Shown here in pieces: positions 38,133 through 62,307 of a stretch of 64,000 bases of DNA. A program made the position numbers and the translations under genes. Source of the stretch: Lasiosphaeria ovina (Eukaryota; Ascomycota; Sordariomycetes; Sordariales; Lasiosphaeriaceae); NCBI GenBank assembly GCA_033439765.1, contig JAULSN010000011.1, forward strand, positions 496,001 to 560,000, given 5' to 3'. The notes under the pieces were generated by a model, which saw nothing but the letters and a program-made list of their open reading frames with translations, did no database searches and had not been told where the DNA came from. The stretch's first letter is position 1. Each line of letters begins with the position of its first letter.

Positions 38133-38140
38133 GTTTGTCC
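38133..38140. repeat. 8-bp target-site duplication, left copy (GTTTGTCC)
   Basis: GTTTGTCC sits directly outside the left terminal inverted repeat. The same octamer in the same orientation sits directly outside the right one at 62043-62050. Confidence 0.85.
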
Positions 38141-38330
38141 TTATCTCAGCAAGCTCAGACCAGTACAGTGGCTCAAAGAGGGGCTGCGCCCCGATTTTTT
38201 AGATTTTTAGGGGACATTGACCCACATAGACCCACAAATACACATTTGAACCAATCAGAACACCCGGAAAAAAGAGCCACTATACTGGTCTGAGTGCATA
38301 ATGCGCATCGAACCGTACGCGCATCTTCAA
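38141..38330 (+). repeat. Left terminal inverted repeat with internal hairpin
   Basis: The outer 21 bp match the right end (one mismatch). An inner inverted repeat (38154-38174 with 38274-38294) brackets about 100 bp. Similarity to the right end continues to a shared GTACGCG near 38317-38323. Confidence 0.75.
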
Positions 38331-38456
38331 ACCTACAACCTACGATCAATTACGCAGGCACAACAACAGCAAAAGCGATCGTAAAAACATCCGGTTAGTA
38401 CCGTTAGAATGCGCGTATTTTTCTGATCATTTTGGTACTAATATTATTAGCAGAAT

Positions 38457-40090
38457 ATGTCTAGCGCGGGAGACAACGATGAATCAGGTCTTTCTGGTGG
38501 CAGCCAGGCATTGCCCCTGCGTATATATGACTCGAGCTCATAGCTTTCTCGCCTGGGCAGCACCCCTGAACTCTCCAGTTCTCAGGCACCTGCATAAGCC
38601 TCACAATAAGAAGAAGACTATGAAGATGACGATAACGACCAGTTAGATAAGTCTCTATATCCAGCGGAAAATATTATGCAGGAAACTATACGTTTCTAAG
38701 GTCAATAACGCAGAAACAGCTTTCAGCGATCACGCCAGTAGGGAGAGGAGCTTCAGAAATACAACCTTCATGCCTTTCTATTTCGATAGACCAAGCAAGG
38801 CTCCCAGTTTGCTAGATCGAGGACTTAACAACTAGCCCAGGCCCTAATGAGTCCTGATATTCGTAATGCCCTCAAGTCATAGGGAATTACTATTATTAGT
38901 GACGATCATGTCGACGATGCGGCTTCTTTCAGCAACACTATACGTAAGGAAATGAAGGCTCTTATTAAAGAGCCGGCGTTTGGCGTGTTTGAGCCCTTCA
39001 AAGGCCAGGTCGAAGCCCTACTTCTATTGCTCAAGTCTGTAATACTACTTGGCTGGAAAAAACACTCGAAGGAGCCTGGCCGCTATTAAAGAGAGAGGCC
39101 CCAACTTTGGTCACCTTTTTATCACAGGTCCTCCAGAATCAGGTATATCTCCCATTCCTATAACTCTTTATCCCATTCCCATAACTCTTTATCCCATTCC
39201 TATGGACGTTACTCCCATTATGGGTTCATAGCTAATAATAAGGTAGCGCATAACCCAGAAAGAGCTGGCCAATATGGACTTTGACGATAAGAAGAGCTCC
39301 CAAATCTTCCTACTCGCCTCCCTATTTACAGGCGGTTATATACGCAACAATAGTTCTTTTTTGAGGGATATTCTTGGCCTCTATATACTCGCAAACGGCA
39401 CACCAAGGCGTGCAATAGAAACCCTCGCTCATATCGGCTTGATTCCTTCATATTAGACCTTGAATAGAATGCTTAACGAAATATCAGATAGAGCGAAGGA
39501 GAACATCAAGAAAGTCGCCAGGGACCCGAATAGTATTGTGGTCTACGATAACTTCAACTTCATAAGCCGAACAAGAGAGCTGGTTAGCGGGAAGAAAGAC
39601 GAGATGATTAATCTTATAACGGCCTGCATTATGTCGTGCCCAGAGCTCGGGGGAGCTATTCAGAAAGCCAATTTCCGGCCTCGAACGAAGATTACGAAGA
39701 GGATGATTATCGATTATATCTTACCGCGCCGAGAGACCGTTAATAATACCTTAAAGTGGCTCGTGAAGTAGGCTCTTATGAAGATCTTCATAAAGAACGT
39801 CCCTGATATGCCTGTCGTTAAGAGAGTCAAATATAAGACCTCTCTATACCTGTAGCTCGGTGCTATATTTGAGGACGAAGGAACTATCGACGGCGTGTAT
39901 AAATTATACGAAGAGCTCTTTAAACGCAGGCTTAGACTTGATTAATAGTCTGATATCGATGAACGCCTTACTCTTGTTTACGGCGATATAAAAACAACCT
40001 CCTTTATTCGCCGTATCAAGCTCTCTTAACTAGAGGCTAGCGAGAAGTGGGAGTAAAAGAAGTGGCTTGTCCCTATGATACGGGAATGGC
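38457..40090 (+). pseudogene. RIP-damaged DUF6589-like transposon gene
   Basis: From ATG 38457 one long frame can be followed with stops only at TAG/TAA, the expected products of CAG/CAA after C-to-T change. The frame changes near 39040 and again near 39230, where a 20-bp tandem repeat (about 39149-39205) sits. Recognisable blocks are FEPFKGQVEALLLLLK, NTTWLEKTLEGAWPLLKREAP, NSIVVYDNFNF (about 39530), a TKRMIIDYILPRRETVNNTLKWL region and LVYGDIKTTSFIRRIK followed by KKWLVP (about 39970-40075). This order, with a VYDN block and a later VYGD-x-T block, resembles fungal DUF6589 proteins, which occur in many copies in fungal genomes. The expected following block (LFHxKMN-type) is missing, replaced by repeat sequence from about 40090. 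Possibly the transposase-side protein, but that is inference. Confidence 0.6.
39149..39205. repeat. 20-bp tandem repeat (about 2.7 copies)
   Basis: Consecutive copies of CCCATTCCYATAACTCTTTAT lie inside the DUF6589-like pseudogene and coincide with a reading-frame change. Confidence 0.8.
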
Positions 40091-40158
40091 CTCAATTGCA
40101 CATGTTCTCAGATACCAAAGTGCACGCAGAAGCAGTAGAACTGAGAGCATTCGCAGTG

Positions 40159-40524
40159 TGTTGTATATTGATTGATGTAAGGAAGAAGAAGAGGCCTTCG
40201 CCGGCAGGTCGGGGACCTGTGTTGACCCTGTGGAAAAGGCGGTCTAATTACGCGGCCTGTGCGGACCCTGCCCGGGCCCCGGCCCCGGACTCCCTAGTCC
40301 AGGCCAAAAGTAGTATGGCCTTTCTGACACATGTCAACAATTGACATGGCCCTCTACCCGCACATGGCGCGTGCACCCCCTGTACATTATATAAGCAGCA
40401 CCCTAGACTAGCGGAAGGCGGGCAAGTAGGCGGTGTGCACCGGCAGTTAATACTGCCACCTGCGCGGGGCATATCCCCGCTGCAGGGCACACCACCTTCC
40501 TTTTCCACCTTCCAACCTTCAACA
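40159..40524 (+). repeat. Possible LTR (TGTTG...CAACA), not RIP-damaged
   Basis: This 366-bp stretch begins TGTTGTATATTG and ends TTCAACA, so its ends are short inverted repeats as in LTRs. A TATATAA box followed by GCAGC (40388-40394) resembles the one in the LTRs of element B. CpA/TpG are plentiful. No 5-bp duplication was found around it (CAGTG against CACAT), so the borders are tentative. It may be a truncated element whose LTR alone survives. It interrupts the DUF6589-like gene. Confidence 0.4.
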
Positions 40525-40865
40525 CACATAATTCTACCACTATATTGGTGATATATGCTGCTTTTCTCTATCAAATAATACTAGTGACTATACGTATTAA
40601 GTAACCAGTCACTAGCATCGTGAGTTAAAGAGTTCAACTCTCTTAGTACGATAATTCAATTGAAGACATATCAAAAACCTGTACGCGATATTCCGACCGG
40701 AGGCGCGCCTATAGTTAGAAAAATTTTTTTACCCCCCCGCTTAGGTAAAAAGTTCGTAAGGACTCGAGCCAACCGCCTTAGCTATTAACCGAATAACCTT
40801 CGGGGATTAATTGAATAGCGCTAGGCGGGTAAGATCGCGATATTATTAAGTATCGCGTCTCGGCG
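40525..40865. other. Unassigned repeat-like sequence between LTR-like segments
   Basis: No open frame. It contains a small inverted repeat around ACTAGTGACT / AGTCACTAG (about 40570-40615) and TA-rich sequence typical of RIP. Probably transposon debris. Confidence 0.4.
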
Positions 40866-40964
40866 TATTATAAACCGCTCGACTATATAGGTCAAGGTTC
40901 GTATCGTGCACAGGCACTATGGGTCTGAAGGGTAGGTAGTTATGAAGAATGAATAAAGGGCAAG
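40866..40964 (-). repeat. Truncated LTR of older element A0 (first 99 bp)
   Basis: It repeats the first 99 bp of the adjacent element-A LTR (ACAAACCGCTCGAC-type start, ending GGGCAAG). It breaks exactly where the complete LTR at 40965 begins. The rest of this LTR probably continues at about 55368-55474. Confidence 0.6.
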
Positions 40965-41375
40965 TATTACAAACCGCTCGACTGTGTGGGTCAAGGTTGT
41001 ATCGTGCACAGGCACTGGGGGTCTGAGAAGTAGATATGAAGAATGAACAAAGGGCAAGCTCCTATTGCACGGGTAATACAGTCAAACTGGGTTTGCCACT
41101 CAAAGTATATGAGTATAGAGAATATGTATTGCTTGCTTGAGGAACCAAGCAAGCTCTATCTAAGACCGTGGCTACGGTCATCGTATATATCTATCTGAGG
41201 GAACCAATCAATAATGTCCCTTACTTACGAGGGGCCGTACTTCGGGACCCCGGGACCACGTACAGAGCTCCGTTGTCCCGGGCCTCCAGAGGTCGGGACC
41301 CTGGGACACTCCTGATTGGTCAATACCAAAAAGTGACTACCCCACCCTTGTGCATTTCTTTAGGGATTCGTAATA
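40965..41375 (-). repeat. Element A LTR (3' LTR of the minus-strand element)
   Basis: 411 bp, same length as 54952..55362. The right 280 bp of the two copies are nearly identical and CpA-rich. The left 130 bp differ by many CA-to-TA and TG-to-TA changes. Confidence 0.85.
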
Positions 41376-41718
41376 CGATGCCCCTCCTCCGAGGTTGGCG
41401 CCCCGACAACTAACGCCTCCCGTTAGTCTCGACGTTTTCTCCTAGTAGGCGATTCTTCCCCTCTTCATCACGCTACTTAGGATGTCTAACCGTATAGGAA
41501 AAACTCGCCGCTCTTAGCGCAAACTTGATACCGACTTAGTGCTTTCGGCCTTTGTGTACTCGTACGGCGCTTCTTCCCTAATGCCGTATGCCAACTACTA
41601 CCGTTATGGTCGCGAGTATATTATCGCTAAACGCTCGAAGCGCTACCGCGAATATATCGACCGTAAGGTATAGTATAGCGGGAACGATTTTGCTTCTGCC
41701 CGTACGTCCCTTCCTTTT

Positions 41719-41982
41719 TGTAAGGAAAGAGCACCCCAAGCACGTGCGCACACCTTTGTGTGCGCCCACCACCTGTCACCAACTGGCCAGACCACTGCCA
41801 GTTGGCACAGCTACTGCCGTCACAAGGAACGGAGCCCCTGAGCATGTATATAAGCAGCGGCCCTCGCCCACCTTCCTTTGCGAGGGCCAGGTTGAAGTCT
41901 TACACTAATGCCACTCATTGCTCGCCCTTCTTCTTGCCTACATTGTGACCACCTTGATCAGGCGTACCTGCCCTCTCTTATA
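41719..41982 (+). repeat. Element B 5' LTR
   Basis: 264 bp with a TATATAA box at 41847-41853. CpA/TpG-rich, so largely spared by RIP. It ends TTATA where the 3' copy has TTACA. Confidence 0.9.
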
Positions 41983-42026
41983 ATTCTTCAACCTCCCTAC
42001 CACCGGTAACGATCGAGCCGGTCACC

Positions 42027-45000
42027 ATGGCAGGCAACACTCGTGGAAAGGGGAGAGCCACTCCTTAGGCCAGTTCAACCCAACAAGCGACCCTCGAGGA
42101 TTTGAACGACCCCGTACAGGACTCTCCTACGCCCTCTACTAGTATGGATCCCTAGCAGTTCCAAGCCTTGATGTTACAGGCGATGACTAACTTTTCTGCC
42201 GGCCTAGGCAACCTTGGAACTACTCTGGCTAACCTAGGACCTTAAGGAGGCCTATCCCGGCCGAAAGACGACCGCCCCCCTACCTACGCGGTTAGTAAGC
42301 TGAGGGTCAATACCTCGTTCCAGGATAGGGAAGACTAGCTATAAGCCGTAGAACAAGGAAACGCTATACGCCAAGACCGACCTCAATAGCTCCAAGTCCA
42401 ATAGGCCAATACCTGGATGGAGCCGGAAACGTAGCAACAATAGCGGGCTTACTAGAAGCAGCTCCACGACGGGGACTTCGAACGAATCGTATAGTAGGAA
42501 TTCAAGGACTACGTTACTTCGGACTACCTTAGTAGCAAGACCGGAGAAGTCCAGGCATATAAAGACTGGCTGGTTTATACCCAACGCGGGAGATTACCCT
42601 AGGAGTTCTATAGAGAGTAGGCCGCCCTAGTTAGACGACTCCCCGGAATAGATACCGAAAGCCCCTTTATAGTACGGGACTATTAGATCAAACTAGACCG
42701 TTTTTACCATAGCCGATACGCCGAGGCCATCCCTAACGTCACCTTAATAAAGGACTATGCCGAATAGTACGAACGTATCTAGTTAACCCGGTCCTACCTA
42801 CGGAACGGTAACGATAAAGAAACCTACCGAAAGCGGATAGGCTCCCCTACTAGCCTCGATAAAGCCCGGAAACTACTACGCACTACGGAGGAAGCTTACT
42901 CCGGGCCCCGCTACGATAAAGCCCGGATCTAACGAAGGGAACTCCGGGATCTACTAATAAAGGATATACCTCCCACCCTAGTATAACTAGTTACCGGGTC
43001 TAACGCGCAGGCCCTTCTCTATACTAGAGAGCCGATTACGTACTACAACTATAGTAAGCTAGGATACGTATAACGCTAATATACCCTCCTACGTACTACG
43101 GCCCTACCGGGCTCGGATACTAGGATCCAGAATATCGGTATAGAGAATGGTGAGGACCCCGGTGACCTATATCCGGAACCCTCCGACTTAGAAGACGACT
43201 CGGAAAACGAGAGGCGGTAGACGACGACCCCGATCGATCTACCTAGGCTATCTTTAAGGGGGTAAAGCCGGGCCCTACCTTCACCATCCAAGGTAGTACT
43301 CGCTCCTAGCGCCGTGGCCAGAAGGCCGCACTACTAACGGTAGTTATTAATACCGATACGGGGGCCTAAGTTAATTACGTAGATCACCGGTTCTACCGGG
43401 TATATTATATCCCTATACTCCCGGAGGCCGAAGGCCTCGACCTACCGTAGCTTATTAACCCTAACGGTAGCCGGATTAAGAACTACGGCATTTTCTACCT
43501 TACTCTCCAACTTACTAATATATACGGGAACCCCCGTACCGTATCTTAATTCTTCTACGGGGTTAAGCGGCCAAAGGGGGCCCTACCAATACTATAGGGG
43601 AACCCGGGTATGGGATTAGAGGGCGTGGTTCTTCATACCGCCCTTAACGCCTTCGAATAGGGCCGTTACTCGGAGATCCTACCGGGGGAATTCGCCCGAG
43701 ACGTCCTTAACGGCGTACCCGCCTTTACGGCCATAGTCTCTAACGTGGTTATCGGGCCCGAGGAGGACCATATCGATACCCTCGACGGCCCGATATAGGA
43801 GCCAAACCCAGAACCTTTACCCCCGGAGCTCGTATACCGCTTAGCCGTCTTCTCGGAATAAGCATCTCGGGAGCCTAATACCCTCGAAGGAGCCGAGCAC
43901 TATATCGATCTTATAGAGGGGTCTATACCGCCGTAGGGCTATATTTATCCCCTTAGTCAAGCCTAATTGGACGAACTAGCTCTCTATATCTAGGAGAACC
44001 TCGCTAACGGCCGTATCGTAGAAAGTAGCAGCCCTACCGGAGCCCTAGTTATTTTCGTCCCTAAGAAGGATGGAACTATACGCTTATACGTCGACTACCG
44101 GGGCCTAAATAAGATTATTATTAAGAACCGGTACCCTCTACTACTTATCAACGACCTTATGGACCGCCTTATAGGTACCCGGTTCTTCACTAAGCTCGAC
44201 CTTAAGGATACCTACTACCGGATCCGGATCCGTAAGACCGATTAATAGAAGATAGCCTTTAAGACCCGCTATAGCTAATTCGAATATACTATTATACCGT
44301 TCGGCTTGACTAATACGCCGGCCACCTTCTAAGCCTATATTAATAGGGCCTTAGCCGGCCTAATAGATATGTTTTATATCGTCTACCTCGATAATATCCT
44401 TATCTACTCCACCACCCGTAAGGAGTATACCCGCTATATCCTAGAGGTGCTCGACCGTCTTGAATAAGCCCAGCTCTTCGCTAAACGGTCAAAATACTCC
44501 TTCTACTAGGACCAAGTCGAGTTCCTAGGCTTTATTATTAACTACTAAGGTATCTCAATAGACCTCGAACGGGTTAAGGCAATCTAAGAATAGCCCGTAC
44601 CCTAGTTAATACGAGAGATATAAGTCTTCCTCGGATTCGCCAACTTCTACCGCCGGTTTATCTAGGGGTATTCTAGGATTACAGCCCCCATTACCGTACT
44701 ACTAAAAGGAGAGGCCACTAACCCTTTCCGATAGTTACTAGAGGCCGATACCGCCTTCAACCACCTCAAAGTAGCGTTTAGTTAAGTAGGTTTCCTTACC
44801 TACTAGGATCCAACCCGCCAGACTAGAGTCGAGACCGATACTAGTAATAAGGCGATCTCCGGGATCCTCTTATAGCTAGTCGACTCTTAATAGCGCCCTA
44901 TAGCCTACTAGTTAAGGAAGCTCACTAATACCGAGCTCCGGTAGGCCACCGGGTAGAAGGAACTTATCGCTATTATCGAGTCCCTCGAGTACTAGGGCCA

Positions 45001-47320
45001 CTACCTAGGCGGCACCGACTAGAGGTTCGTAGTTCTCACCGATTACGAGGCCTTAAAAGGGGTAATTATAGCCCTAGCCCGAGACCTTAAGGGCCACTTA
45101 GCTAGATAGGTATACCGCCTATCTCCTTTCGATTTCGACCTCGAATATCGACCTAGGGCTACTAACCCCGCCGACCCCCTTTTAAGAAGACCGGACTATA
45201 TAATAGGAGAGATTACCTACGACGATATATTACCCACCTTAACGAAGAAGCTATAGTTAGCTAGGGAGTTACTAGTAGTAGTAAGGGCAATCGTAGCCTA
45301 GATTAAGGCCGGGGTATAGAAGAAGTCGTACTCCCGGAAGTACCGTAGAGCGGTGAGACGAGTTAAATAGACCCTTTAATATCCTCGAGTTAAAGGTATA
45401 GCTAGGGTTTCGGCTATAACGCGCTTTGCCCTCGGGGCCACCGGACGCGTAGCGTTTAATAAAGCGGAGCCCCGGGAAAGGAGCTACTAGCGGGACGGAA
45501 GCACCCCGACGGAGGGGCTAGGACGCCGTACTAGGAGAACTACTACGGACTCGCCAGAGTAGACGATCTCGCCGGGGCGGTTAGATTAGAGGGTCGAGGG
45601 GTAACTAAAGCCAGACGCTTAGGGTACCGACCTATTAATTCCTTACGCGGTTACGGTAGAGGTTTACGCCGGTAAGGCAACTAAGGAATAGGATCCTAGG
45701 CATAGATTCTATAGGTCGATTATCGCCCTATAGAAAGGGGATCTCGAATATAGAAGCCGTATTAAGGAGGTGCTCGAGGATTAAAGAAACACGGGTACTA
45801 GGCCCATAGGGAAACCAGGGAATAACAATACGCGTATAGGTACTGGATTCCAGGGCAGACCAGGAAATAATAGCGTTAATAACGCGGGTACTAGGCCCAT
45901 AGGGAAACCAGGGAATAATAATATAAGGCGTATAGGTACTAGGTTCCAGGGCAGGCTAGGAAATAATAGCGTTAATAATAAGGGGGCCCTCTAATATAAA
46001 GGTAGGCTAGTAATCCTAATAGCGCTAGTAGTACGAAGAGAGCTAATACGCTTATACTACGATAACCCTAGAGCCGGGCATTTTAGGAGCTATAAGATAG
46101 TGGACCTATTAAAGCGAAGATTCTACTAGGAAAATCTAGATATAGAAGTACAAGCTTATATAAAATAGTACTAGGTATACCTCGGTAACCGATAACTAAG
46201 GTATAAGCCATACGGGAAGCTCAGCTCCCTACCGCTACCTACCCAACCTTTCGAAGAAATTAGCCTAGATTTCATTACGAAGCTACCCCCTTACTAGTAT
46301 AAGGACCGTATTATAGATACCATCCTGGTAGTTATAGACCGGTTTACGAAAACCGCGCTCTTTATCCCAACTACTACTACGGTTACGGTAGCCGAGTTAA
46401 CCTAGCTACTCTACGAGTATGTAGAATGCCGATTTAGTATACTAATAGGTATGGTCTCCGACCGAGATTCCCTATTAACTAGTAATTTCTGGGTGGAGCT
46501 CTCTAAAGCTCGCCAAGTTAAGTAGAGGCTCTTAATAGCCTACCACCCGCAGACCGATAGCCAGTCGGAACGAACATACCAAAGCCTATAGTACTATTTA
46601 AGGTACTTTACCGACGAAGAGGCCTAGTAAGCACCACTACTCTACGAAGCGGAGTTTACGTACAATAACAGCGTATACATAACCATCGGAGCGAGCCTAT
46701 TCGAGGCTCTATACGGCTATAATCCTCGGATGGCGCATTACGTACCCTCTATACAGCTAAAGGTATAAGGGGTTTACGAGCGGCTGAGCAAGCTAGCACA
46801 CCTGAGGGAGAGGTTATACTACTATTGGCAGAAGGTAGTGGACTCCTAGAAGAAATACTACGACGCACGACACCAGTGGATCGAATTCAAAGTAGGAGAG
46901 ACAGTTGGACTCTCTATATAGAATTTCCGATTCAAGGTAGGAAGGAAGCTAGCACCAAGGTTCATCCCAGTCAAGACTACGGAAAGGATCGGCATGTAGG
47001 CATACCGGGTCGAACTACTAGCTAAGTACGCCCGGCTCCATAATGTCTTCCTAGTCTCCCTATTAGAAAAGTAGTCGGTAGCCGAAGGCCAGAAGGTACT
47101 ACCACTACCAGAGCTAATAGAAGGAGAGGAGGAGTAGGAAGTAGAAGACATCGTAGAATACAAGGATGAAGGAGAACGAAAAAGGTTCCTAGTCAAATGG
47201 GCAGGCTGGCCAGCAGAATATAACACCTGGGAACCTAGGGAACACTTGGCCAACGCACAGAAGGTGCTACAACGATACGAGAAAAAAGCAAAACAAAGGC
47301 ACAGGAAGTGGAATAACTAA
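42027..47320 (+). pseudogene. Element B Gag-Pol polyprotein, destroyed by RIP stops, chromodomain still readable
   Basis: The frame opens at MAGNTRGKGRA (42027) with stops at TAG/TAA from the start. In the reverse transcriptase (about 43980-44580) one reads VPKKDGTIRLYVDYRGLNKI, FTKLDLKDTYYRIRI and IVYLDNILIYS. The catalytic YLDD is now YLDN, matching a G-to-A change. RNase H, integrase (zinc-binding region near 46070-46190 and a catalytic core to about 46700) and a C-terminal chromodomain follow. The chromodomain (about 47137-47250) reads [20 protein letters not shown] and NTWEPREHL and has no stop. RIP density falls towards both ends (42.0-42.2 and 46.6-47.3 kb). Confidence 0.85.
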
Positions 47321-47372
47321 AAAGTCATTAATCCACGAGCACGACCCGCAGGCAGTGCCCATGAACCAAGAT

Positions 47373-47443
47373 GCCCCGAGGAGGATTCGAACCCCCGACC
47401 TCTAGCAAAGATACTAGGGTATTAACCACTACACTACCGCGGC
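47373..47443 (-). other. tRNA-like sequence in element B, antisense to pol
   Basis: On the minus strand the 71-nt stretch begins GCCGCGG and ends TCGGGGC (6 of 7 acceptor pairs). It has a D-arm-like GTGTAGTGGTTAATAC and a T arm around GGTTCGAATCC. The anticodon stem is CTAG/CTAG with an 8-base loop, so it is not a clean functional tRNA. The possible anticodon is CTT, which is uncertain. It lies between the chromodomain stop and the 3' LTR. Confidence 0.6.
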
Positions 47444-47523
47444 GCTTTTGCTCTTATTAGAGGGAGGACAACAGATAAGGTTCAAGATCGACGAGGACGT
47501 CGATCTACGGGGGGGGGGATAGT

Positions 47524-47787
47524 TATAAGGAAAGAGCACCCTAAGTACGTACGCACACCTTTGTGTGCGCCCACCACCTGTCACCAACTGGCCAGACCAC
47601 TGCTAGTTGGCATAGCTACTGCCGTCACAAGGAACGGAGCCCCTGAGCATGTATATAAGCAGCGGCCCTCGCCCACCTTCCTTTGCGAGGGCCAGGTTGA
47701 AGTCTTACACCAATGCCACTCATTGCTCGCCCTTCTTCTTGCCTACATTGTGACCACCTTGATCAGGCGTACCTGCCCTCTCTTACA
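47524..47787 (+). repeat. Element B 3' LTR
   Basis: 264 bp, nearly identical to 41719..41982, with TATATAA at 47652-47658. Preceded by a G-run (about 47510-47518) that can serve as the polypurine tract. Confidence 0.9.
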
Positions 47788-48242
47788 CTTTTCTCCTTCC
47801 TTCCTACCCTCTACTTATTTCTCTAGTTGCCCGTAATATGGAAGAGGAATAAGGTCTTGGTACGGAGGAAGAAGACCTCACCGACGAGTAGCTCTAGATT
47901 ACGGGCAAACTCTCTAAGCTTCAGACTCGTATTCTTACGGTTCGTCGCCGCCGTAAGAATCTAAGGGAGAGAGGGAAAGAGCTTTTCGGGCGCGGCATAG
48001 TCGAATTCGAAAAAAACAACCCGGTGCCCGTCCCTTCAGCCCTAGCTCCTTCCGCTTCGGCTCCTGCGGCTTTTTCCTCCCTCGACCCTACCCTACTAGG
48101 CTTCTCTTCGCCTACGCCTTCCTTCCTTAATTAGACCGGCGATATGCCCTAATTAACTAAGTCCCTATAGGCACCTACTACGAGTCCCTCGACTAGGCCT
48201 TAATATAGCGCGTTATACGGAGTGGTTCTTAATAATTAAGTA

Positions 48243-48360
48243 AGGTCGCTAGTTTAGTAGTATGACGTATTACCGCGTATCTCGCTAGCCGGAAATGGCC
48301 TTGGCTATTCCGGTTAGTAGGAGCCAGTACGAGGTCGTAGGTTCGAATCCTACGCGATCT
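48243..48360 (+). other. tRNA-like sequence with a long intron-like insert, in element A
   Basis: AGGTCGC at 48243-48249 pairs over 7 bp (one G-T) with GCGATCT at 48354-48360. The T arm GTAGG-TTCGAAT-CCTAC is perfect, and a T-rich run follows. A D-arm-like TAGTTTAGTAGTATGACG is present. The middle is about 45 nt longer than a normal tRNA and RIP-altered, so the anticodon cannot be read safely. It starts four bases after the antisense ORF ends and is antisense to pol. A diverged copy lies in A0 (56786-56908). Confidence 0.6.
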
Positions 48361-48399
48361 ATTATTTTTATATTTTTCTAGATCGTCCCCGGCGCCTTG

Positions 48400-51300: not shown

Positions 51301-54300
51301 ATTCGCGGGGTACGTTCTTAAACTTATCCGGTATCTTACCTAAGTCGTCCTCGTCCGGCTCGATAGCCTTAATAAGTATAATAAATCGTCCTTCGCCGAT
51401 ATCTACTCCCTTCTTTAGCTTAATCGACCTACTATAATCCCTACGTTGGCCTATATAGCGATCTTGGCTCCTACTTTCTGCTTTAAGCGGCCCTTCCTCG
51501 TTATCTTGAGGGTTTTCTTCCCGAGGTTAGCGTCCTAATCTACGGTCTTTCTTCTTTCTACTAGCGAGAAATTTATTACCTTTCTCCTACTAAATATCGG
51601 GGTTATAAGCTTCTAGCTACGGGTCCCCTAATAGTATATCGAACTACTTTACTAACGGTAGTATATTAAATATAACTTCGTAGGATTCTCTATCTACCGT
51701 GATTAGTAGCGGTTGGGTCTCCTATATATAATACCCGTTATTAAATCCTATAGGAGCTCTATCGAAGGTCTTTAGCTTTAAGGGGGCCTCCTTTTCCTTC
51801 TAAGGGATTCGGAGTCGCTTTACGAGATCGGCGGAGATAATATTTCTATTACTTCCTCCGTCGATTTTCGCGACTAGGGATAACGATCCCTTCTCTTTCC
51901 TAGATCCCTATTCGTACTAGGCCTATATCTATAGCCCTCGTAAGAATCCTAGTTCCGCCTCTACTCTACTAACGATTACTTCGTCCGAGCGAGATAGTGA
52001 TTGAGGTCTTTGGGTAGACCTAACCGTAGGATGCCTCTAATCCTCAGTATCGGTCCGTTCGAACGTAGGTTTTACTCGCGGTCGCCGGGCCTACTAGAGG
52101 CCCGCGAGCCGTTTCCCAAACGTTCTCTTACCTACTATAATTACTAATATAGTATTCATTCTCTTCGGGTCTTCTACTAGGGTACCTTAGGTTTATACTC
52201 GATACTTACGAGTTATCGTATTTCGTTCTTAAGGGCTAAGCGCGCGTCTCGCTCCTATTACTACCGTACGGTCCTCTAGCGAGACCTTCTAAGATATTAG
52301 CGCTAACTAGTAGTCCAAGCTATAACCTTCTAGCGCTAGTATATAGTATAGTCGATATTTTCGTACTCTCTCTAGTCGGTCTTCCTCTTCTAATAGTCCT
52401 TCTAGGAGAATAGCTTTACTACGATCTCTGAGCTACCTTCGGCTTATAGATCGGTATCCACCTCGATCTCCTCTATAAGTACGTACCGAAATACCCTAGG
52501 CATCGCCTGGTCTCTAATTCTAGCCGGAAAGTAGTCGAAATTCCACTTATATACGAGGTATATCTAATAGGTATCGTAGATATAACTTATCTAATCCACT
52601 CCCTCGTATTCAGGATATTTAGGGTCAAGTTAGAGCGCGTCTCCTACTTCGATATCCGCTTCCTCTATTATATCCTTTATAACCTTCCCTATCTTAGTAT
52701 CTTCGGCGGGGCGTAAGGGTCGCCTAATCTCCTCGTAGTCCCCTTCGTCGATTTAGCTTTCCTAAGGGGCTAATCGCTAGTCCCTATATTCCTCCAGGAC
52801 TACGTATTCCTCGTTTAGCTACCCTAATAAATCTATTTTCTACTAAGTTAAGTAGGCTAGAATAAGGATATCGTCCTAATACTCTTTAGGTAATTGGTTT
52901 CCTTTATCGATCCTCCTAATTAGCTCTTCCTACTCTATACGGTATCTCTCTAATCCTTTACGAAGGTCTAGGATTTCTCTAACCATAGCTTTATAGCCTT
53001 ATATCTAGTCCTCTTCTTCTTCATCCGTAAACGGAGAGGGGACCTCCAATCCCTAGGCTTCTACTAGCCCGCGGGCAAGTCCCTATATACCGTAGTCGGG
53101 GAGACTTCCTATCTCGTCCTATCCTTACTCTACTCGCGAGGGTAGCCGATCGCTAGTAGGCTTAAAGGCTACTATAATATCGTCCTCTTCCTCGTCTTAT
53201 AAGACTATACCCACGACCTAAGTATCGCTAAAGCGTAGCTTCTTATCTTCCGAGGGCCTCTAGTTACCCTATTTTCGTAATTAGCGGTATTTGTAAGGGG
53301 AAGGCAGGTACGCCCGATCAAGGTGGTCACAATAGAAGCAGTAGGTAGGCAGAGCAAGAAGTGGTATTGGCTAAAGACTTCAACCTGGCCCTCGCAAAGG
53401 AAGGTGGGCGAGGGCCGCATCTATATGTAGGCTCAGGGCCTTTGTTGAGGCTCCGCGGGCGTGGCGCCACGGTGTGGCGCTTGTGGCGCGGCCAGTTGTG
53501 CGTGCCTTCGAGGGCTGCGCAGCGAGGGCTGCGCAGGGCCCTTTGAGGGCCTTTGTTGCGCAGGGCCTTTGAGGCTCTGCGAGTGTGGCGCTGCCGTGTG
53601 GCGTTGGTGGCGCAGATGACACAGCGCGCATCGGCTTTGGGCCCGGGCTTCGCACAGGAAGGTGGGCGAGGGCCGGGGCCGCATGCTCGGGGGTCCTTTT
53701 CCTTACAGTATTCTCTAGCCTAGTGGCCTTTCTTACTATAGTTATTATAGGTATCGTTCTTCTTATCGCGAGGTAGGCGTAACTACTATACTAGGTTCTA
53801 AAGAAGTACTCTAACGCTTTCGTCTATTAGTCCTAGGTATATACCTAAGGTAATTAAAGATATAGCCCTCTTCTTCTTATCGTTAGGCTTATTACCCTAG
53901 CGGCTATAGTAGCCTCCTACTAGTCGTCCGTCCTTCTTTTCTCGTCGCTTCTTACTTTCGCGCTAGAACTATCGGTCATCGATATTAATTACCGCTTCGA
54001 TATATTCCCGTAGTATCTCCGGGCGAGGCGTCTTATAGAGTTCGTCCTTAACGTAGTCCTTTAGGCTATCGTAGAACGTAAGTAGCTATCCCTAGACTAA
54101 CTAGTTAAGGCGTAGTATATAGGTCTAGAACTCAACTATATACTCGGCCACTAAGCGAGTCTATCTCAGCCTCTTAATCTACTCTTCGGCCTTCCTCTAG
54201 ATATAGCGTTCCGTAAAGAATTCGCCCATTAGCTTAAGGACTCCCTCCGCTCCCTCGTTAATATTAGCGTAGATAACGGGGTTCTTATCCTTTACTACTT

Positions 54301-54940
54301 ACGCTAGCGCCTTCTAGTATGGTTCGAACTAAACGGCCGCTTTCCCGACGAGTCGCGTTCCGACGTACGTTACTCCATCCTTCTAGAGCGGGATTTCGTC
54401 AATGTTATACTTAATAAAGGAGAGTACTATATCCTTCCAATTTTCGAATTTATCTTTATCTCCGTCGTAAAGCTCAGGGTACGGGATCTTTAGCTTCTTC
54501 TTAGGAGGAGCCGGCGGAGGTAGAGGTAGTACCGCCCTTACTACCTCCAGTCCTATAATTCTTTCTACGGCCACTCTCATATTATGGTCGTATCTCCCTA
54601 CCTACTCTCTTAGCTGGGCTAGCTCATTCTGGAGCTGCTCGTTCGTGGCTATATTATTACTTATCGAAAGGGGTTCTAGTTATTATATAAGGCTAGTGAT
54701 CTCCCCGTTATTAGTTGGCTCTTCCGGTACTGGAGCGTCTGCATCCCGGACTTCCGTATCCTTAGGCTGGATTGATCCGGCTTTACTACTACTACTATTA
54801 GACTCGTCGTCGCTAGACGATCTAACCTCTTCTTCTGGCTCGGTATCTGGAAGGACCGTATCCTCTCTAGGTATAGCCAGGTTATCGTATATATAAAAGT
54901 ACTCTATTTAATTAATATCAAGGGTCTTAGAGAAAGTAAA
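48400..54940 (-). pseudogene. Element A Gag-Pol, minus strand, destroyed by RIP
   Basis: The minus strand gives a Retrotrans_gag-like protein from about 54900: YPELYDGDKDKFENWKDIVLS, then LKLMGEFFTERY, LTFYDSLKDYVKDELYKTPRPE. All stops are TAG/TAA. The gag is interrupted by a solo LTR at 53292-53707. Pol follows. Near 50740 the reverse-transcriptase active site reads IVYIDNILIYS (YIDD to YIDN by a G-to-A change). RNase H and integrase regions follow to about 48.9 kb. The last part (48.4-48.9 kb) is the pol C-terminus. For kilobases there is almost no CpA or TpG while CpG persists. Confidence 0.8.
53292..53707 (-). repeat. Solo LTR related to element B, GC-rich and not RIP-damaged
   Basis: It begins TGTAAGG and ends CTTACA with the exact 5-bp duplication GTATT on both sides (53287-53291, 53708-53712). 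In reverse orientation its outer parts match the B LTR (GGCAGGTACGCC, CTTCAACCTGGCCC, GGAAGGTGGGCGAGGGCC). A GC-rich, tandem-repeat-like insert of about 230 bp (GGGCCTTTG and GTGGCGC units) sits in its middle. CpA/TpG are intact, in sharp contrast with the surrounding element-A DNA, so it arrived after RIP acted there. Confidence 0.85.
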
Positions 54941-54951
54941 AGCAAGCAACG

Positions 54952-55362
54952 TATTACAAACCGCTCGACTATATAGGTCAAGGTTATATCGTATATAGGT
55001 ACTAGGGGTCTAAGAAGTAGATGTAAAGAATGAATAAAGGGCAAGCTCCTATTATACGGGTAATATAGTCAAACTGGGTTTGCTACTTAAAGTATATGAG
55101 TATAGAGAATATATATTGCTTGCTTGAGGAACTAAGCAAGCTCTATCTAAGACCGTGGCTACGGTCATCGTATATATCTATCTGAGGGAACCAATCAATA
55201 ATGTCCCTTACTTACGAGGGGCCGTACTTCGGGACCCCGGGACCACGTACAGAGCTCCGTTGTCCCGGGCCTCCAGAGGTCGGGACCCTGGGACACTCCT
55301 GATTGGTCAATACCAAAAAGTGACTGCCCCACCCTTGTGCATTTCTTCAGGGATTCGTAACA
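54952..55362 (-). repeat. Element A LTR (5' LTR of the minus-strand element)
   Basis: 411 bp. The left 130 bp, next to the gag, are RIP-altered while the remaining 280 bp match 41097..41375 almost exactly. Confidence 0.85.
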
Positions 55363-55800
55363 TTCTTATCCCGGTATCCCGAAAGAAATACTCGGGGTGC
55401 TGGGATACTCCTAATTAGTCAATACCAAATAGAGGGTGCCCTATTACTATATATTTCTCTAGGGATTCGTAATATAATGCCCCTCCTCCGAGGTTAGCGC
55501 CCCGATAACTAACGCCTCCCGTTAGTTTCGTCGTTTCTCCTCTTATAGGCATTTTTCCTCCTTTTATTACGCTAATCATAATGGCTAACCGCGTAGGAAA
55601 GACTCGTTGCGCCTAACGTAAGCTCGATTCTAATTCCTCCTTATCCGCCTTTATATATGCGTACGGCTTTCCGTCCCTAATACCCTATACTAACTGCTAT
55701 CGCTACGACCGTAAGTGCGTTATCGCGGAGCGCTCGAAGCGTTATTACGAGTATATTAATCGTAAGGTATAATATAGCGGAAACGATTTTGCTTTAGCCC

Positions 55801-56554
55801 TATAGAACTGCGTTCCTGTATAGGCCTGAACTCAGCACCTATACAGGGTGCGCAGGGCAGCAGGCGCAGCGGAAGCAAGGCGTGTAGCGTATATCGGGAA
55901 CCAAGTGCAGGGTAGGTCGATCAAGTGCAGGGTAGACTGTAGGGAACTGTGCCCTACGGTCCGATACAACAGTGCTTCTGCAAGGCACTGAGGGAAGCAG
56001 GCTGACTGACTACAGGTCTGTAGAACTCTGCTACAGGCCTGCCACTCAGACTGTGAAGACTCTGCTCAGCAGTCTACCTCGTAGGCTGTAGGGGACTCTG
56101 CCCTACAGTCAGGGTCTTCGGGACTAACTGTGGGTGCTGAAGAAGACGGAGAGGAGTTATATTATAGAAGAAGTATAGTACAAAGAGTGGTGAGTATAAT
56201 ACTTGCTTATTGCTTTCTTTTATACTCATAATAAGAGGCTTGCTTGCTTTTTGAAGGAAATCTATCTAAGGGAAAGGACAGGTCTATATAGACCTAAAGT
56301 GGGCTCTCTAGAAGGTTCTAGAGACCCACAGGCTCCGTAGACAGCTCTGTATTCTACAGTCTTCTAGTGGGCTTGTCTTACGTATGCCAAGACGTATAGG
56401 GGTTTCGAGAGGGTGCTGTAGGGCAAAGTAAACAATCTAGGTATAGCGCCCTCAGCACCACACAATAGCCACAACACTCACAACTCCAACACAGCTACTG
56501 TAGTGCCCTATACTTCAGGACCCTACAACCCTAGTAACTAGCCGTACTTTAATA
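55801..56554 (-). repeat. D1: 754-bp LTR-like repeat, inverted copy of D2
   Basis: Its reverse complement matches D2. The ends are TTTAA(C/T)A-like on the right and TATAGAACTGCG on the left, where D2 has CGCAGTTTAACA. It contains perfect small palindromes such as GTCTATATAGAC and CTCTAGAAGGTTCTAGAG. CpA/TpG intact. No 5-bp duplication around it (AGCCC against ATAGT). Confidence 0.7.
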
Positions 56555-56785
56555 ATAGTTAAGTTCGAAAAGAATAACCCGCTACCCGCTCCTTCCGAGT
56601 CGGCTTCCGCGACTCTCCCTTCCTTCGATCGTACCCTACTAGGCATTTCTTCGCCTATACCTTCCTTCCTTAACTAGACCGGCGATATACCCTAATTAAT
56701 TAAGTCCCCGTAGGTACCTACCGCGAGCTCTACGACTAGGCCTCAATATAGCGCGTTATACGGAGTAGTTCTTAATAATTGAGTA

Positions 56786-56908
56786 GGGTTGCTAATCTAG
56801 CGGTATAACGCGTCGTTTCTTTCGATAATTATTTCTCTATATAGGCCAAGCTCCCGAGAGATAGTTAGATCCTAGCGTGAGGTCGTAGGTTCGAATCCTA
56901 CGCGATTT
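56786..56908 (+). other. Diverged tRNA-like copy in A0
   Basis: The T arm GTAGG-TTCGAAT-CCTAC is identical to the copy at 48243-48360. The acceptor (GGGTTGC with GCGATTT) keeps pairing mainly through G-T pairs, and the middle has diverged strongly. Same place in the element, after the antisense ORF. Confidence 0.5.
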
Positions 56909-57551
56909 ATTATTTTTGTATTTTTTCTAGAACGTTCTTAACGCCCCGGAGCTACCTATATAAGCTCCCTAGGCCGGTCTGGATTTTATTAGTAGAATTC
57001 TTAGATCTTGTCCGGGTAGCTTAAAAATAAAACTAGTTCTTATAAGTTCTCCTTATTCTTATAATTAAGCTATTTAATTAGGTATTAGAGCTCTCCTTTT
57101 ATAATACGAGAGTCCAGAACCTACTTAACGTCGTATTCTTCCTTAAAGTCCTCGACTTCGATATCTTAAGCTAGCCGCGCGTTTCTCGGCGTTAGTTTAA
57201 AAAGTAAAATATAAAAGATATTCGTCCTTAGCTTTATCGTACTAGGTAAGGATAATATATAGTTAAATATTACGATCTTCTTCTTAACCTTAAACGGTCT
57301 AATCCTCTTAAAGCCTAGCTTCTTACTTAGCTATTTTATCGTTAAAAATTTCATTAAAAGAAAAACCTTATCCCCCTCCTCTAAGCGAGGTCCCTCGAGC
57401 CTATATTTATTATAATACGTCTTTATATACTAGCGTACTTGTTAAAGTATGGCTAGTTACTAGGGTTATAGGGTCCTAAAGTACAGGGCACTACAGTAGC
57501 TATATTAGAGTTATGAGTATTATGGCTGTTGTATGGTGCTGAGGGCGCCAT

Positions 57552-57777
57552 TATCACGGTACAGTAGACCTGAAGGAGGCAGGGCTGCGGTATTGATCGC
57601 TGTATTCGTAGAATCTAAGTTGTAGAAGGAAGAGAGCTATCTAGGACCCCGCGGGGCAAGGAAGTAAGGTGTGGTGCGGGCCACGTGCTTGCCAAGCCAT
57701 GGTCCCCACTTATAATCAGGATGCGCCCAATCAGGGTGCATCAGCCATTTGCCACCTTGTCAGGCCATGCCGTGACA
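57552..57777 (-). repeat. Element E 3' LTR
   Basis: 226 bp, identical by eye to 59251..59476. Confidence 0.93.
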
Positions 57778-57972
57778 CTACCCCCGGGCGGAAAAAGCTT
57801 CGTCCCGAAGCTTACCTCAGCATCAGAAAAAATCGATTCTTCGGAGTTGACGAACACGTCGGAAATGAACGATTCAGCGCGATTGACGCAGTCTTCGCTC
57901 AGCGACAGGGCTGCGGTAAGACTGTCCGGGAAAACGGTCGGGCCGACCGGATCAATTGGCGGACCGGTCCGA

Positions 57973-58863
57973 TTACTCAGACAGGTCGTTGATGAACTCG
58001 CGATCGATATCGCGCTTCCAAGCCTTCAACTCAGCCAAGGTCAGGTACTCGCGACCTCCAGGGGCTATGTTGTTATTATTATTGTTATCATTAACAGGCT
58101 CGAAGGGCTTGACTGCCAAGTCAAGGCCGGAAAGCTCATTCAGCTCCATCGGGGTTGAATGGTTGTTTGTGTGGTTGTTGGATTGACCACCGTTGTAACT
58201 GCCGGGGCTTCCAAGCTTCTGAAGCAAAGTGACGAAGCCGTTGTAGTCAGTCGGTACGATGATTTGGTGATCGAGGCGGGCACGCGTACGCGCATTGAGT
58301 CCCTTGCGCAACAAAGCGATCTTGGCTGAATCAGACCACAAGTTGGCTTTCGCTTTGTACAACAAGCGCTCGAACTTGGCCAGGTAGGTTGTGAGGCTGT
58401 CATCACCCTGCTTGGTGTACTGGAGCTTGTCTTCAGCGATCTGGACTTTGTTCGGGTCGTCATGCAGGCGTTGCAATTGATCAATGAGGGCAGCCGGGTC
58501 GTAGAAGGCATCGTCTTCGGCCTGGCTGAGTTGAGGCATCACCAGGGCTTGGATCTTTGGCTCCAAGCGATCGTAGATGTAGAAGAATTGGGCCTCGCCG
58601 TCACCGATTGATTCGCCGTCAATACGAAGCTTAGCACGAATAGCGGGATGCCACTGCTCCCAGGCCATTTCAGTGCCGTTGAACTTGACAGGGTCAGGAA
58701 GACTGGGCTTCGGTCGCGATCGATGGGAGCGGGCAGTGACGAGCTCAGTCATGGTGTTGAGGCTACCATTCGCGGTCGCTAGGGCGAGTTCCAGGCCAGC
58801 GATGCGGGTGTTGTGCTCTTCAATGATGTTTTGCATCTGAGCGATCTGGTTGTCGTGATTCAT
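57973..58863 (-). CDS. Element E Gag protein, 296 aa, intact
   Basis: The N-terminal coiled coil (IAQMQNIIEEHNTRIAGLELALA) is followed by a capsid-type region: PVKFNGTEMAWEQWHPAIRAKL, then a TTYLAKFERLLYKA block and ALLRKGLNARTRARL. This is the typical order of Gypsy-type Retrotrans_gag. An Asn run and a charged C-terminal tail follow. No zinc knuckle is present. The start at 58863 overlaps (ATGA) the stop of an upstream 98-codon frame (59156..58860) in the 5' leader, which might affect translation. The product would package RNA but needs reverse transcriptase and integrase from another element. Confidence 0.85.
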   Translation of the reverse strand: MNHDNQIAQMQNIIEEHNTRIAGLELALATANGSLNTMTELVTARSHRSRPKPSLPDPVKFNGTEMAWEQWHPAIRAKLRIDGESIGDGEAQFFYIYDRLEPKIQALVMPQLSQAEDDAFYDPAALIDQLQRLHDDPNKVQIAEDKLQYTKQGDDSLTTYLAKFERLLYKAKANLWSDSAKIALLRKGLNARTRARLDHQIIVPTDYNGFVTLLQKLGSPGSYNGGQSNNHTNNHSTPMELNELSGLDLAVKPFEPVNDNNNNNNIAPGGREYLTLAELKAWKRDIDREFINDLSE

Positions 58864-59250
58864 CTTGACTGGTCCGATTGATCAGAGCGATAGGGAAAAG
58901 GAAAAGGAAGGTCGGAGAAGGAAGGTCGGAAAAGGTCGACGGTCGGGCTTCCTGGCTGGGCGATTACTTTCGGAGCGCCTGCTTTAATAACACACGGAGC
59001 GACAAGCTCAACGCCTTCGTAAATGAAGCTCGATACCTTCGTCGCGAAGCGCACGATGACTTCGTAATGAAGGGTGTAGCAGGACCCTACTTTCATACAC
59101 TCCCGAACAAAATCAGGTCCTAGGTCGATGGTCGGATCGGAGCGGCGAATACGCACAACACAGTCGCAACTGTCATGCGTATGCGGGTCCTTTCCAAAGA
59201 GAAGAAGAATAGGATCCCCGGCTGGTTAGGCCGTAGAAACGAACTTAGAT

Positions 59251-59476
59251 TATCACGGTACAGTAGACCTGAAGGAGGCAGGGCTGCGGTATTGATCGCT
59301 GTATTCGTAGAATCTAAGTTGTAGAAGGAAGAGAGCTATCTAGGACCCCGCGGGGCAAGGAAGTAAGGTGTGGTGCGGGCCACGTGCTTGCCAAGCCATG
59401 GTCCCCACTTATAATCAGGATGCGCCCAATCAGGGTGCATCAGCCATTTGCCACCTTGTCAGGCCATGCCGTGACA
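59251..59476 (-). repeat. Element E 5' LTR
   Basis: 226 bp, identical by eye to 57552..57777. The adjacent bases (ATCTAAGTTCG on the minus strand) do not begin TGG, so a conventional tRNA-CCA primer site is not evident. Confidence 0.93.
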
Positions 59477-60179
59477 GCCATACCTAGATTGTTTACTTTG
59501 CCCCACAGCACCCTCTCGAAACCCCTATACGTCTTGGCATACGTAAGACAAGCCCACTAGAAGACTGTAGAATACAGAGCTGTCTACGGAGCCTGTGGGT
59601 CTCTAGAACCTTCTAGAGAGCCCACCTTAGGTCTATATAGACCTGTCCTTTCCCTTAGATAGATTTCTTTCTCAAGTAAGCAAGCCTCTTGTTATGAGTA
59701 TAAAAGAAAGCAACAAGCAAGCACTACACTCACCACTCTTTGTACTATACTTCTTCCATAATACAACTCCTCTCCGTCTTCTTTAGTACCCACAGTTGGT
59801 CCCGAAGACCCTGACTGTAGGGCAGAGTCCCCTACAGCCTACGAGGTAGACTGCTGAGCAGAGTCCTCACAGTCTGAGTGGCAGGCCTGTAGCAGAGTTC
59901 TACAGACCTGTCGTCAGTCAGCCTACTTCCCTCAGTGCCTTGCAGAAGCACTGTTGTATCGGACCGTAGGGCACAGTTCCCTACAGTCTACCCTGCACTT
60001 GATCGACCTACCCTGCACTTGGTTCCCGATATACGCTACACGCCTTGCTTCCGCTGCACCTGTCACAACACTGTGCACCCTGTATAGGTGCTGAGTTCAG
60101 GCCTATACAGGAACGCAGTTTAACAATCGTCATCCTGCTTAATAAGCTATAGTTAGTTCTAAAGACGACTAGGTATGGC

Positions 60180-61423
60180 TAGTATATGAGGCTGGCGGCG
60201 GGCTCTTCTTATAGGCGGCCCTCTCGGCTTTGGTGGTTATTTATCATAACTCCCTAGGTGATCAAATAGATAGTAGGGGGCAAATAAAAAAGCCTCCCCC
60301 TAACCTTCACACTTTCGTATTACTCTTCTAAAACGCTACTAAATATCTGAAAGACTTTGACCCGGGGGTATGCCGAACTAAACAACACGCTATACATCGG
60401 GGATGTCCATCCCTATATCGAGGGATATAGAGGCGAGGATAATACGGCAGTCGGTATCTCTATTCGCGAAGTCCTTGAAGATGATCTCTTGGTCGGTTAG
60501 GCGCACATCTGTATCGTACCGGCGTATGACTTTGGCTGCAAACTGGCTTGTAAAGCCACAGGACTTTTAAAGGTATTTAAGAAGGATATACCGGGCCAGG
60601 ATCAGCTTGGGCTTACTATCAATATATATGATTATTTTTTTTATCAGCCGGGCTTCGTTGGGCTTGGATCCTTCCACGAGGAAATGCAGGCGCCTAAAAT
60701 CCGTAATAACCTTCCTCATCAACGGTAGTAGGATGACCGTAATCTCGGGCCTGTCGATCGATATGCGGATTATTTGGAGATTTCTCTAATCAAAGCCGGC
60801 ATACTTGAGTATATACGCCTGGTTGTCCCTGTCCAGCGTTGCCGTACAGCCAAAGAATGGAATTCTCCGCGGCATCAATGCCCTCAACGTATATAGATAT
60901 GTAAATTCTTCTCGGAACTCACGCCATTCGCTAATCATATGAAGTTCATCTATAGCGAAGAGTCCAAGCTTACTATAGAAATCGGGATCACGAAGGACCG
61001 CTTTGAACTTCGGGTTGACAGCTTGTTCAGGGCTTAGAAGTACATAACTATATTGGCCAGCTTTGACTTCTTTCCAAACGTTCGGGTTCTAGATAAATTA
61101 GTTAGCCTCATTTTATTCAGGGGTCAGGGGTCAGGGGTAAAAAAGGGGCTGGCCTTGAGGTGGGTGTTACTATCAATCCAGATAGGCTTCGAAGAAGGCA
61201 CAGCCCTAACGATGTCATCCCTCTGGTTCTCGCCTAGCTTCGTGAGAGGGACGATTTGTACTATGGTCAGCTTCGTGATCGCCGAGAAGGCGTATAGTAC
61301 AGCGCTTTTTCCGTAGCCTGTAGCTGCCACCAGTACTATATCCTTTTTCTGATGAACAAGCCGATATACTACGTCGATCTGACCCTTACGGGCTTCCCGG
61401 GCGCCTGTGATCTTACAGATCAC
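60180..61423 (-). pseudogene. RIP-damaged RecQ-like superfamily 2 helicase
   Basis: From about 61423 the minus strand reads GQIDVVYRLVHQKKDIVLVAATGYGKS (Q-motif-like and Walker A), IVQIVPLTKLGENQ, a break near 61125 (CAGGGGT repeated three times), then YVLLSPEQA, LFAIDELHMISEW (motif II, DELH in place of DEVH/DEAH), FFGCTATLDRDNQAYILKYAGF (motif III), IIYIDSKPK, ILASISLDIGMDIPDV (motif V) and a worn motif VI (RFRRVIR). Stops are TAG/TAA. The order is that of RecQ-type helicases, as in telomere-linked or transposon-borne fungal copies. It lies inside the right end of the 23.9-kb element and reads inward, as does the DUF6589-like gene at the left end. The end near 60180 is approximate. Confidence 0.72.
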
Positions 61424-61839
61424 ATCTTTGATGCGGTTTCTATGCTCGTTTTCTTCTATTTCGAGGGCGCAGGAGGTCTCACGGTAGGTTGGAAGGAAAA
61501 GGTGGTTGTAAAGGGAAGAAAATTACATGCTGAGGATGCCCCGCGCGAGGGCATTCTATGTGCAAATTTTCAGATTTTTTGGCCCTGTTGTGGCTGCATA
61601 CTTGGGACGAATCTGACGGGCAAAAGACGGAACCCCGCGTCGATTTTTTCGTTTGATGTTACCATCGACACTTCTACATAATATATAGACATGAAAAGTA
61701 CACCAGTAGATGCGCCTGCGTCTCAGCATCTTCAGAAGCATATTTTCATTCTATCACGATATGTTGTTATGGTGTTGTTAAGGCGCAACTAATCTACATT
61801 TTTTTTATTTGTATGGGGGACGGAACCTCGCGTACGACT

Positions 61840-62042
61840 ACCGCAACATTACGCTCTCAGACCTTTTTTTCAGGCGTTCTGAGCAATGTGGGTCCAAGTG
61901 GGTCTATCTGAGCCACACCAAAAATTTGCGGGTCACAGGATGCGAATGCGGCCTAGGGTCCCTTTTTTTATGGGGGGGGGGTGCCGTAGGCACCTTCCTT
62001 CTATTCTACGCCTGAAAAAAAGGTCTGAGCCTGCTGAGATAA
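61840..62042 (-). repeat. Right terminal inverted repeat with internal hairpin
   Basis: The last 21 bases mirror the left end with one mismatch. Inner arms 61856-61876 and 62009-62029 are perfect inverted copies. A G-run (61972-61981) lies inside the loop. Confidence 0.75.
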
Positions 62043-62050
62043 GTTTGTCC
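62043..62050. repeat. 8-bp target-site duplication, right copy (GTTTGTCC)
   Basis: Identical and in the same orientation as 38133-38140. Confidence 0.85.
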
Positions 62051-62307
62051 TAGGTAAGTAGATAGTCTCTTTTGACTTTTAGTCCGAACCTTCGACCGTG
62101 TTGAGTAAGGTACGAACAAGCAAACGCACTGGTTATTTGCCACCACCACCTGATGGCGTCCCAAGGGGTGCGGGGGTGGTTGCAAAGTAAAATGACGTCT
62201 CCTCCCCCGATCTGTTCCTGACCAACTACCACGCGCTCCAAAGCTCACCCGCTCGGCGAAATCTCCTTCTTCTTCGTCAAGACACCACCCCTCCGCCAGA
62301 CATCCTC

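Follow-up and report, generated by a model that had tools for sequence, protein, structure and literature searches.

A decayed copy of a probable cut-and-paste DNA transposon family pairing DUF6589 with a RecQ-like helicase in Lasiosphaeria ovina

We analysed a stretch of 64,000 nucleotides from the ascomycete Lasiosphaeria ovina (contig JAULSN010000011.1, positions 496,001 to 560,000; hereafter the window), and in particular a 23.9-kb interval within it that the initial annotation had described as one large, helicase-bearing DNA transposon. The two ends of this interval indeed belong to one fungal DNA transposon. However, the element is in our view, with a probability of about 0.87, a dead copy of a much smaller, ~6.2-kb cut-and-paste family that encodes a predicted DDE transposase (DUF6589) and a RecQ-like helicase. 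Comparison of the ends placed 21-bp terminal inverted repeats (TIRs) at window positions 38141–38161 on the plus strand (TTATCTCAGCAAGCTCAGACC, the DUF6589 end) and 62022–62042 on the minus strand (the helicase end). The two arms are identical at 20 of 21 positions, with a single-base difference, and their outer bases begin TTATCTCAG. Immediately outside, the sequence reads GTTTGTCC at both edges (38133–38140 and 62043–62050), a target-site duplication (TSD) that is exact only at 8 bp when lengths of 2–12 bp are scanned. Thus, the borders, the repeats and the exact octamer reported initially are all borne out, while the interpretation of the element is partly supported.

The true size of the family became apparent from its other copies in the source genome (51.7 Mb in 32 contigs). 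Five copies measure 6,191–6,218 bp (C6a, 6,204; C28, 6,199; C32a, 6,218; C7, 6,191; C29, 6,205), and we therefore take the family unit to be ~6.2 kb; C32b is 6,662 bp long and the divergent C23b 5,141 bp. At either end of the window copy, a stretch of ~1.9 kb aligns collinearly with the corresponding outer region of the 6.2-kb copies. The left remnant (38141–40076, plus strand) contains the start of a broken DUF6589 gene, and the right remnant (60126–62042, minus strand) part of a broken RecQ-like helicase gene. Between them, some 2.3 kb of the original interior has been lost and is replaced by a block of nested insertions (40077–60125). A search for this missing middle in the rest of the window found nothing longer than 30 bp in common with the interiors of C6a and C28. 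It might still be argued, as initially proposed, that the element is a genuine 23.9-kb helicase transposon whose middle 20 kb is cargo: a single pair of TIRs and a single exact TSD bracket the whole 23.9 kb, and one further end pair (C27) is spaced 34.8 kb apart. Yet C27 lacks an exact TSD, pieces of the 20-kb block sit at different positions in other copies, and the block itself consists of retroelements with reverse transcriptase, RNase H and gag sequences, two of them within duplications of their own (CTTTT and GCCAT), together with a long-armed inverted insertion. Given these observations and the five collinear ~6.2-kb copies, we consider a 23.9-kb element very improbable and reject it in favor of nested insertions and an internal deletion within a ~6.2-kb unit. 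The C27 end pair (C27:4725304-4760136) encloses nested repeats in common with the block in the window.

The nested block, ~20 kb in length, is composed mainly of retroelements. An LTR (long terminal repeat) retrotransposon at 41719–47787 (plus strand) has reverse transcriptase, RNase H and an integrase zinc-binding domain, direct LTRs and the 5-bp duplication CTTTT on both sides. It is nested inside a probable second LTR-type retroelement on the minus strand, inferred from reverse transcriptase and RNase H matches and from direct repeats at 40960–41701 and 54946–55800, the limits of which (40960–55800) are approximate. Adjoining the right remnant is an insertion with long inverted arms (55801–60125; 645 bp at 95.5% identity, then 113 bp more). 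Within its right arm lies a short LTR element (57552–59476, minus strand) with the duplication GCCAT and a 302-residue stop-to-stop gag frame (57973–58881, minus strand); its end repeats are 100% identical, so it was probably inserted recently. The GC content is 38–52% in 2-kb bins between 38 and 62 kb, compared with 49–67% in the bins before 38 kb.

A search with the outer ends, suggested in the initial annotation as a check, showed that they recur on other contigs. Queried with the left 268 bp of the window copy, the genome gave 26 match rows; with the right 242 bp it gave 20. These counts include the copy itself, and some rows are pieces of a single copy. Flanks were compared for 13 copies with both ends; C23a, C6c, C6d, C12b and C5 gave at most one end and weaker rows were left out, so that 13 is not the genome-wide copy number. 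An exact 8-bp TSD flanks eight of the 13 (the window copy, C28, C32a, C32b, C1, C30, C12a and the divergent C23b), and the sequences duplicated across the family are varied 8-mers. In two more copies, C7 (6/8 positions matching) and C29 (7/8), the halves differ by transitions only, while in the remaining three of the 13 the TSD is absent (C6a, 2/8; C12c, 4/8; C27, 5/8). Mismatched flanks served as the control: the left flanks of 12 copies were set against the right flanks of the others, and none of the 132 pairs matched over 8 bp. Recurrence, on which the proposal of a transposon family had been made to depend, is observed at multiple genomic sites. Two copies, C30 and C12a, are 1,985 bp long and have no middle. 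They are one base apart, and each lies in a different exact duplication, suggesting that they moved recently while lacking genes of their own.

The first of the two genes is recognizable in the window as a fragment matching DUF6589 (PF20231) at 39790–40083 on the plus strand, covering profile positions 49–144 of 410 with a score of 46 bits (cut-off, 27) and interrupted by two TAG and three TAA stops. The match overruns the border at 40076 by 7 bp, which we take as an edge effect. Genome-wide, the DUF6589 profile gave 21 match rows, grouped into 17 places. At a single one of these, in C5, is nearly the whole domain open, in a frame of 640 residues. The limits of this C5 copy could not be established, as the TTATCTCAG end at L057:6889 is oriented away from the adjacent open DUF6589 gene; that end may mark another copy's border or reflect a rearrangement.

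What kind of protein might DUF6589 be? Pfam catalogues it as a domain of unknown function, and a literature search by DUF6589, PF20231 and IPR046496 returned no relevant paper. Structure prediction suggests a DDE transposase. Among 50 structural matches listed for the predicted fold, the top 28 are of the ISCth4, Hermes, P element or RAG1 type, these types lying within ~2 Z units of one another. The top Foldseek rows are Hermes, a hAT transposase; a Foldseek search with the first model had given no useful match. A viral library gave no hit at E ≤0.001; its closest entry was a pandoravirus protein containing a hAT dimerization region (E = 8.5e-3). Together with candidate acidic triad columns (D220/D364/E622), the predicted RNase H fold would give DUF6589 the general hallmarks of DDE enzymes, namely this fold and three conserved acidic residues.

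The second gene faces the first. In the window, a Helicase_C (PF00271) fragment lies at 60312–60638 on the minus strand (30.9 bits against a cut-off of 23.5; four TAG stops and one TAA), and an N-terminal helicase frame with the P-loop GYGKS at 61124–61522, also on the minus strand, matches DEAD at 23.4 bits, below the cut-off of 26. The DUF6589 and Helicase_C matches pass their cut-offs, and the two inward-facing pseudogenes noticed initially are confirmed. Open pieces of the helicase match recQ_fam (2.9e-21, below the model's cut-off), WRN/RecQ chains in the PDB and Helicase_C, which by sequence similarity identifies the gene as a RecQ-like helicase. Of 100 Helicase_C rows in the genome, many are presumably host helicases. 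Nevertheless, an opposite-strand Helicase_C match faces DUF6589 at 11 of the 17 DUF6589 places (the window, C6a, C28, C32a, C32b, C29, C1, C5, C12b, C23b and C32 at 411–413 kb), in agreement with the pairing described at first. At the other six (C7; C6 in its second copy at 300 kb, at 354–357 kb and at 366–368 kb; C32 at 52 kb and at 877 kb) the profile list has no facing Helicase_C. Outside L. ovina, 22 DUF6589 homologues fall on 21 contigs of distinct size, five of which recur among the helicase homologues: 14,770 bp in Achaetomium macrosporum, 406,399 bp in Diatrype stigma, 7,473 bp in Annulohypoxylon truncatum, and contigs of 6,123 bp (jgi) and 4,000 bp (lgn). This linkage is read solely from equal contig sizes in the two lists; where species are named in the hit tables, the names agree. 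The other 16 contigs have no listed helicase homologue, and several of them are shorter than 4 kb.

Each end of the element also carries a subterminal inverted repeat of its own. At the DUF6589 end the outer arm (38154–38174, plus strand) and the inner arm (38274–38294, minus strand) are 95% complementary and separated by 99 bp; at the helicase end the inner arm (61856–61877, plus strand) and the outer arm (62008–62029, minus strand) are 100% complementary and separated by 130 bp. The repeated sequence, next to the TIR, is end-specific: it reads CTCAGACCAGTAC... at the DUF6589 end and CTCAGACCT(C)TTTTTCAGGCGT at the helicase end, and its inverted second copy begins 111–191 bp inside the tip. 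Such a repeat is present in all 14 DUF6589-side and all 14 helicase-side ends examined, with agreement at 16–22 of 24 positions that none of 200 shuffles reached in any case, although these 28 ends are not independent because many copies are close relatives. In the divergent C23b, C12b and C5 fragment the letters have changed, yet the arms still agree at 18–20 of 24 positions, suggesting that their pairing has been kept. A 150-bp slice from the left end of the window copy, which includes most of both arms, has a better folding energy than all 200 of its shuffles (z = -4.7). In four other 150-bp slices (window right, z = -2.9; C6a, -1.2 and +0.6; C23b, -1.6) the inner arm fell outside, so these do not test a hairpin, and the support comes from the inverted repeat itself.

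The decay of the family has a characteristic signature. Whichever two of C6a, C29, C30 and C12a are compared (six pairs), every substitution is a transition; one pair, for instance, has 587 transitions and no transversions in 6,204 columns. Most stops interrupting what is left of the DUF6589 and helicase genes are TAG or TAA. Together, these features match the pattern of repeat-induced point mutation (RIP). The window copy differs from C6a by 217 transversions and 416 transitions over 3,828 columns and belongs to another subfamily. RIP is likely to be behind the stops in its genes as well. The TA/AT ratio of its remnants is raised (1.03 and 0.99 versus 0.72 in the left flank); against RIP, the (CA+TG)/(AC+GT) ratio is unshifted (1.08 and 1.06 versus 1.09), and for this reason RIP is a likely but unproven cause of its decay.

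How does this family relate to known transposons? Kolobok elements target TTAA, whereas the TSDs here are varied 8-mers, and the P element, whose transposase resembles the predicted DUF6589 fold, makes 8-bp duplications, as does this family. Zisupton elements occur in fungi. Both they and hAT elements such as Hermes, the latter likewise similar in predicted fold, have 8-bp TSDs (PMC12730594). However, no hAT or KDZ family is among the Pfam matches of 13 homologues; moreover, a helicase partner distinguishes this family from hAT, the P element and Zisupton/KDZ alike, and the TTATCTCAG start of the TIR from the first two. Helitrons are described as having neither TIR nor TSD (PMC4522978), while this family has both. 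KolobokH, a DDE transposon of fungi, does have a RecQ helicase, but one described as lying downstream of the transposase domain (PMC9587614); in the present family the helicase gene occupies the opposite strand.

The initial annotation could not assign the pairing of the two genes to any named superfamily. A named relative does exist in AcademH, an Academ lineage of DNA transposons that encodes a helicase and is reported from Ascomycota (PMC10799480), and since both AcademH and KolobokH are reported with a helicase, a helicase-bearing fungal DNA transposon is of a known kind. In our reading, the family works like AcademH and may belong to it, and we find it fairly probable that this is a true AcademH lineage that happens to make 8-bp duplications. 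A predicted DDE fold and a RecQ-like helicase within a fungal TIR transposon fit such an assignment, as do the placement of Academ among DDD/E superfamilies (PMC9587614) and the DEAD and recQ_fam domains reported for fungal Academ copies, which frequently pass for host genes in annotations (PMC6416283). On the other hand, the TSDs given for AcademH are 9 or 10 bp (PMC10045372), and here only 8 bp was seen: with lengths of 2–12 bp scanned, none of 12 copies has an exact TSD of 9 or 10 bp, and the flanks of the thirteenth disagree beyond 8. Because of this difference we describe the family as an AcademH-like variant rather than a member, a distinction drawn from published descriptions of Academ.

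The 8-bp TSD, shared with hAT and Zisupton (PMC12730594), and the Hermes matches at the top of the Foldseek results would instead suit a separate helicase-bearing lineage near hAT/P-like transposases, one that gained its RecQ gene independently of AcademH and KolobokH. We regard this as rather unlikely, as fold likeness does not split the superfamilies (ISCth4, Hermes, the P element and RAG1 score too closely) and neither hAT nor KDZ emerged from the Pfam comparison. A bolder reading would be that DUF6589 defines a previously unrecognised DDE transposase family with 8-bp TSDs, apart from AcademH and KolobokH, in which the helicase would open the end-specific inverted site pairs so that the two ends are distinguished and paired; we regard this, too, as rather unlikely.

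As to its surroundings, the transposon lies between two stop-to-stop frames on the plus strand. Directly to the left is a frame of 974 residues (34983–37907) with NPHP3_N and DUF7791 matches and weaker NACHT/AAA_16 matches, a fungal protein resembling NOD-like receptors; directly to the right is a frame of 584 residues (62191–63945) with no Pfam match.

Returning to the ~6.2-kb cut-and-paste family, its life cycle may be pictured as follows. The DUF6589 transposase, with its predicted RNase H fold, would bind the TTATCTCAG... ends, aided by the inverted second site ~110–190 bp inside each, excise the element and reinsert it at a staggered cut, giving rise to the 8-bp duplications. The facing RecQ-like helicase would most likely open or clear DNA at the ends or else, once strands have been transferred, assist in repairing or replicating the joints. 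Copies of ~2 kb with an internal deletion retain both ends and could be mobilised by enzymes from full copies. In the window copy, both genes have acquired stops, the interior has been lost and retroelements have accumulated inside. If DUF6589 is indeed a DDE transposase, as predicted, this would give a proposed function to a Pfam family catalogued without one, and annotators could remove such genes from host gene sets. Exact ends, a transposase frame that is open and short derivatives that appear to have moved recently make the family suited to asking why a helicase accompanies some DDE transposons.

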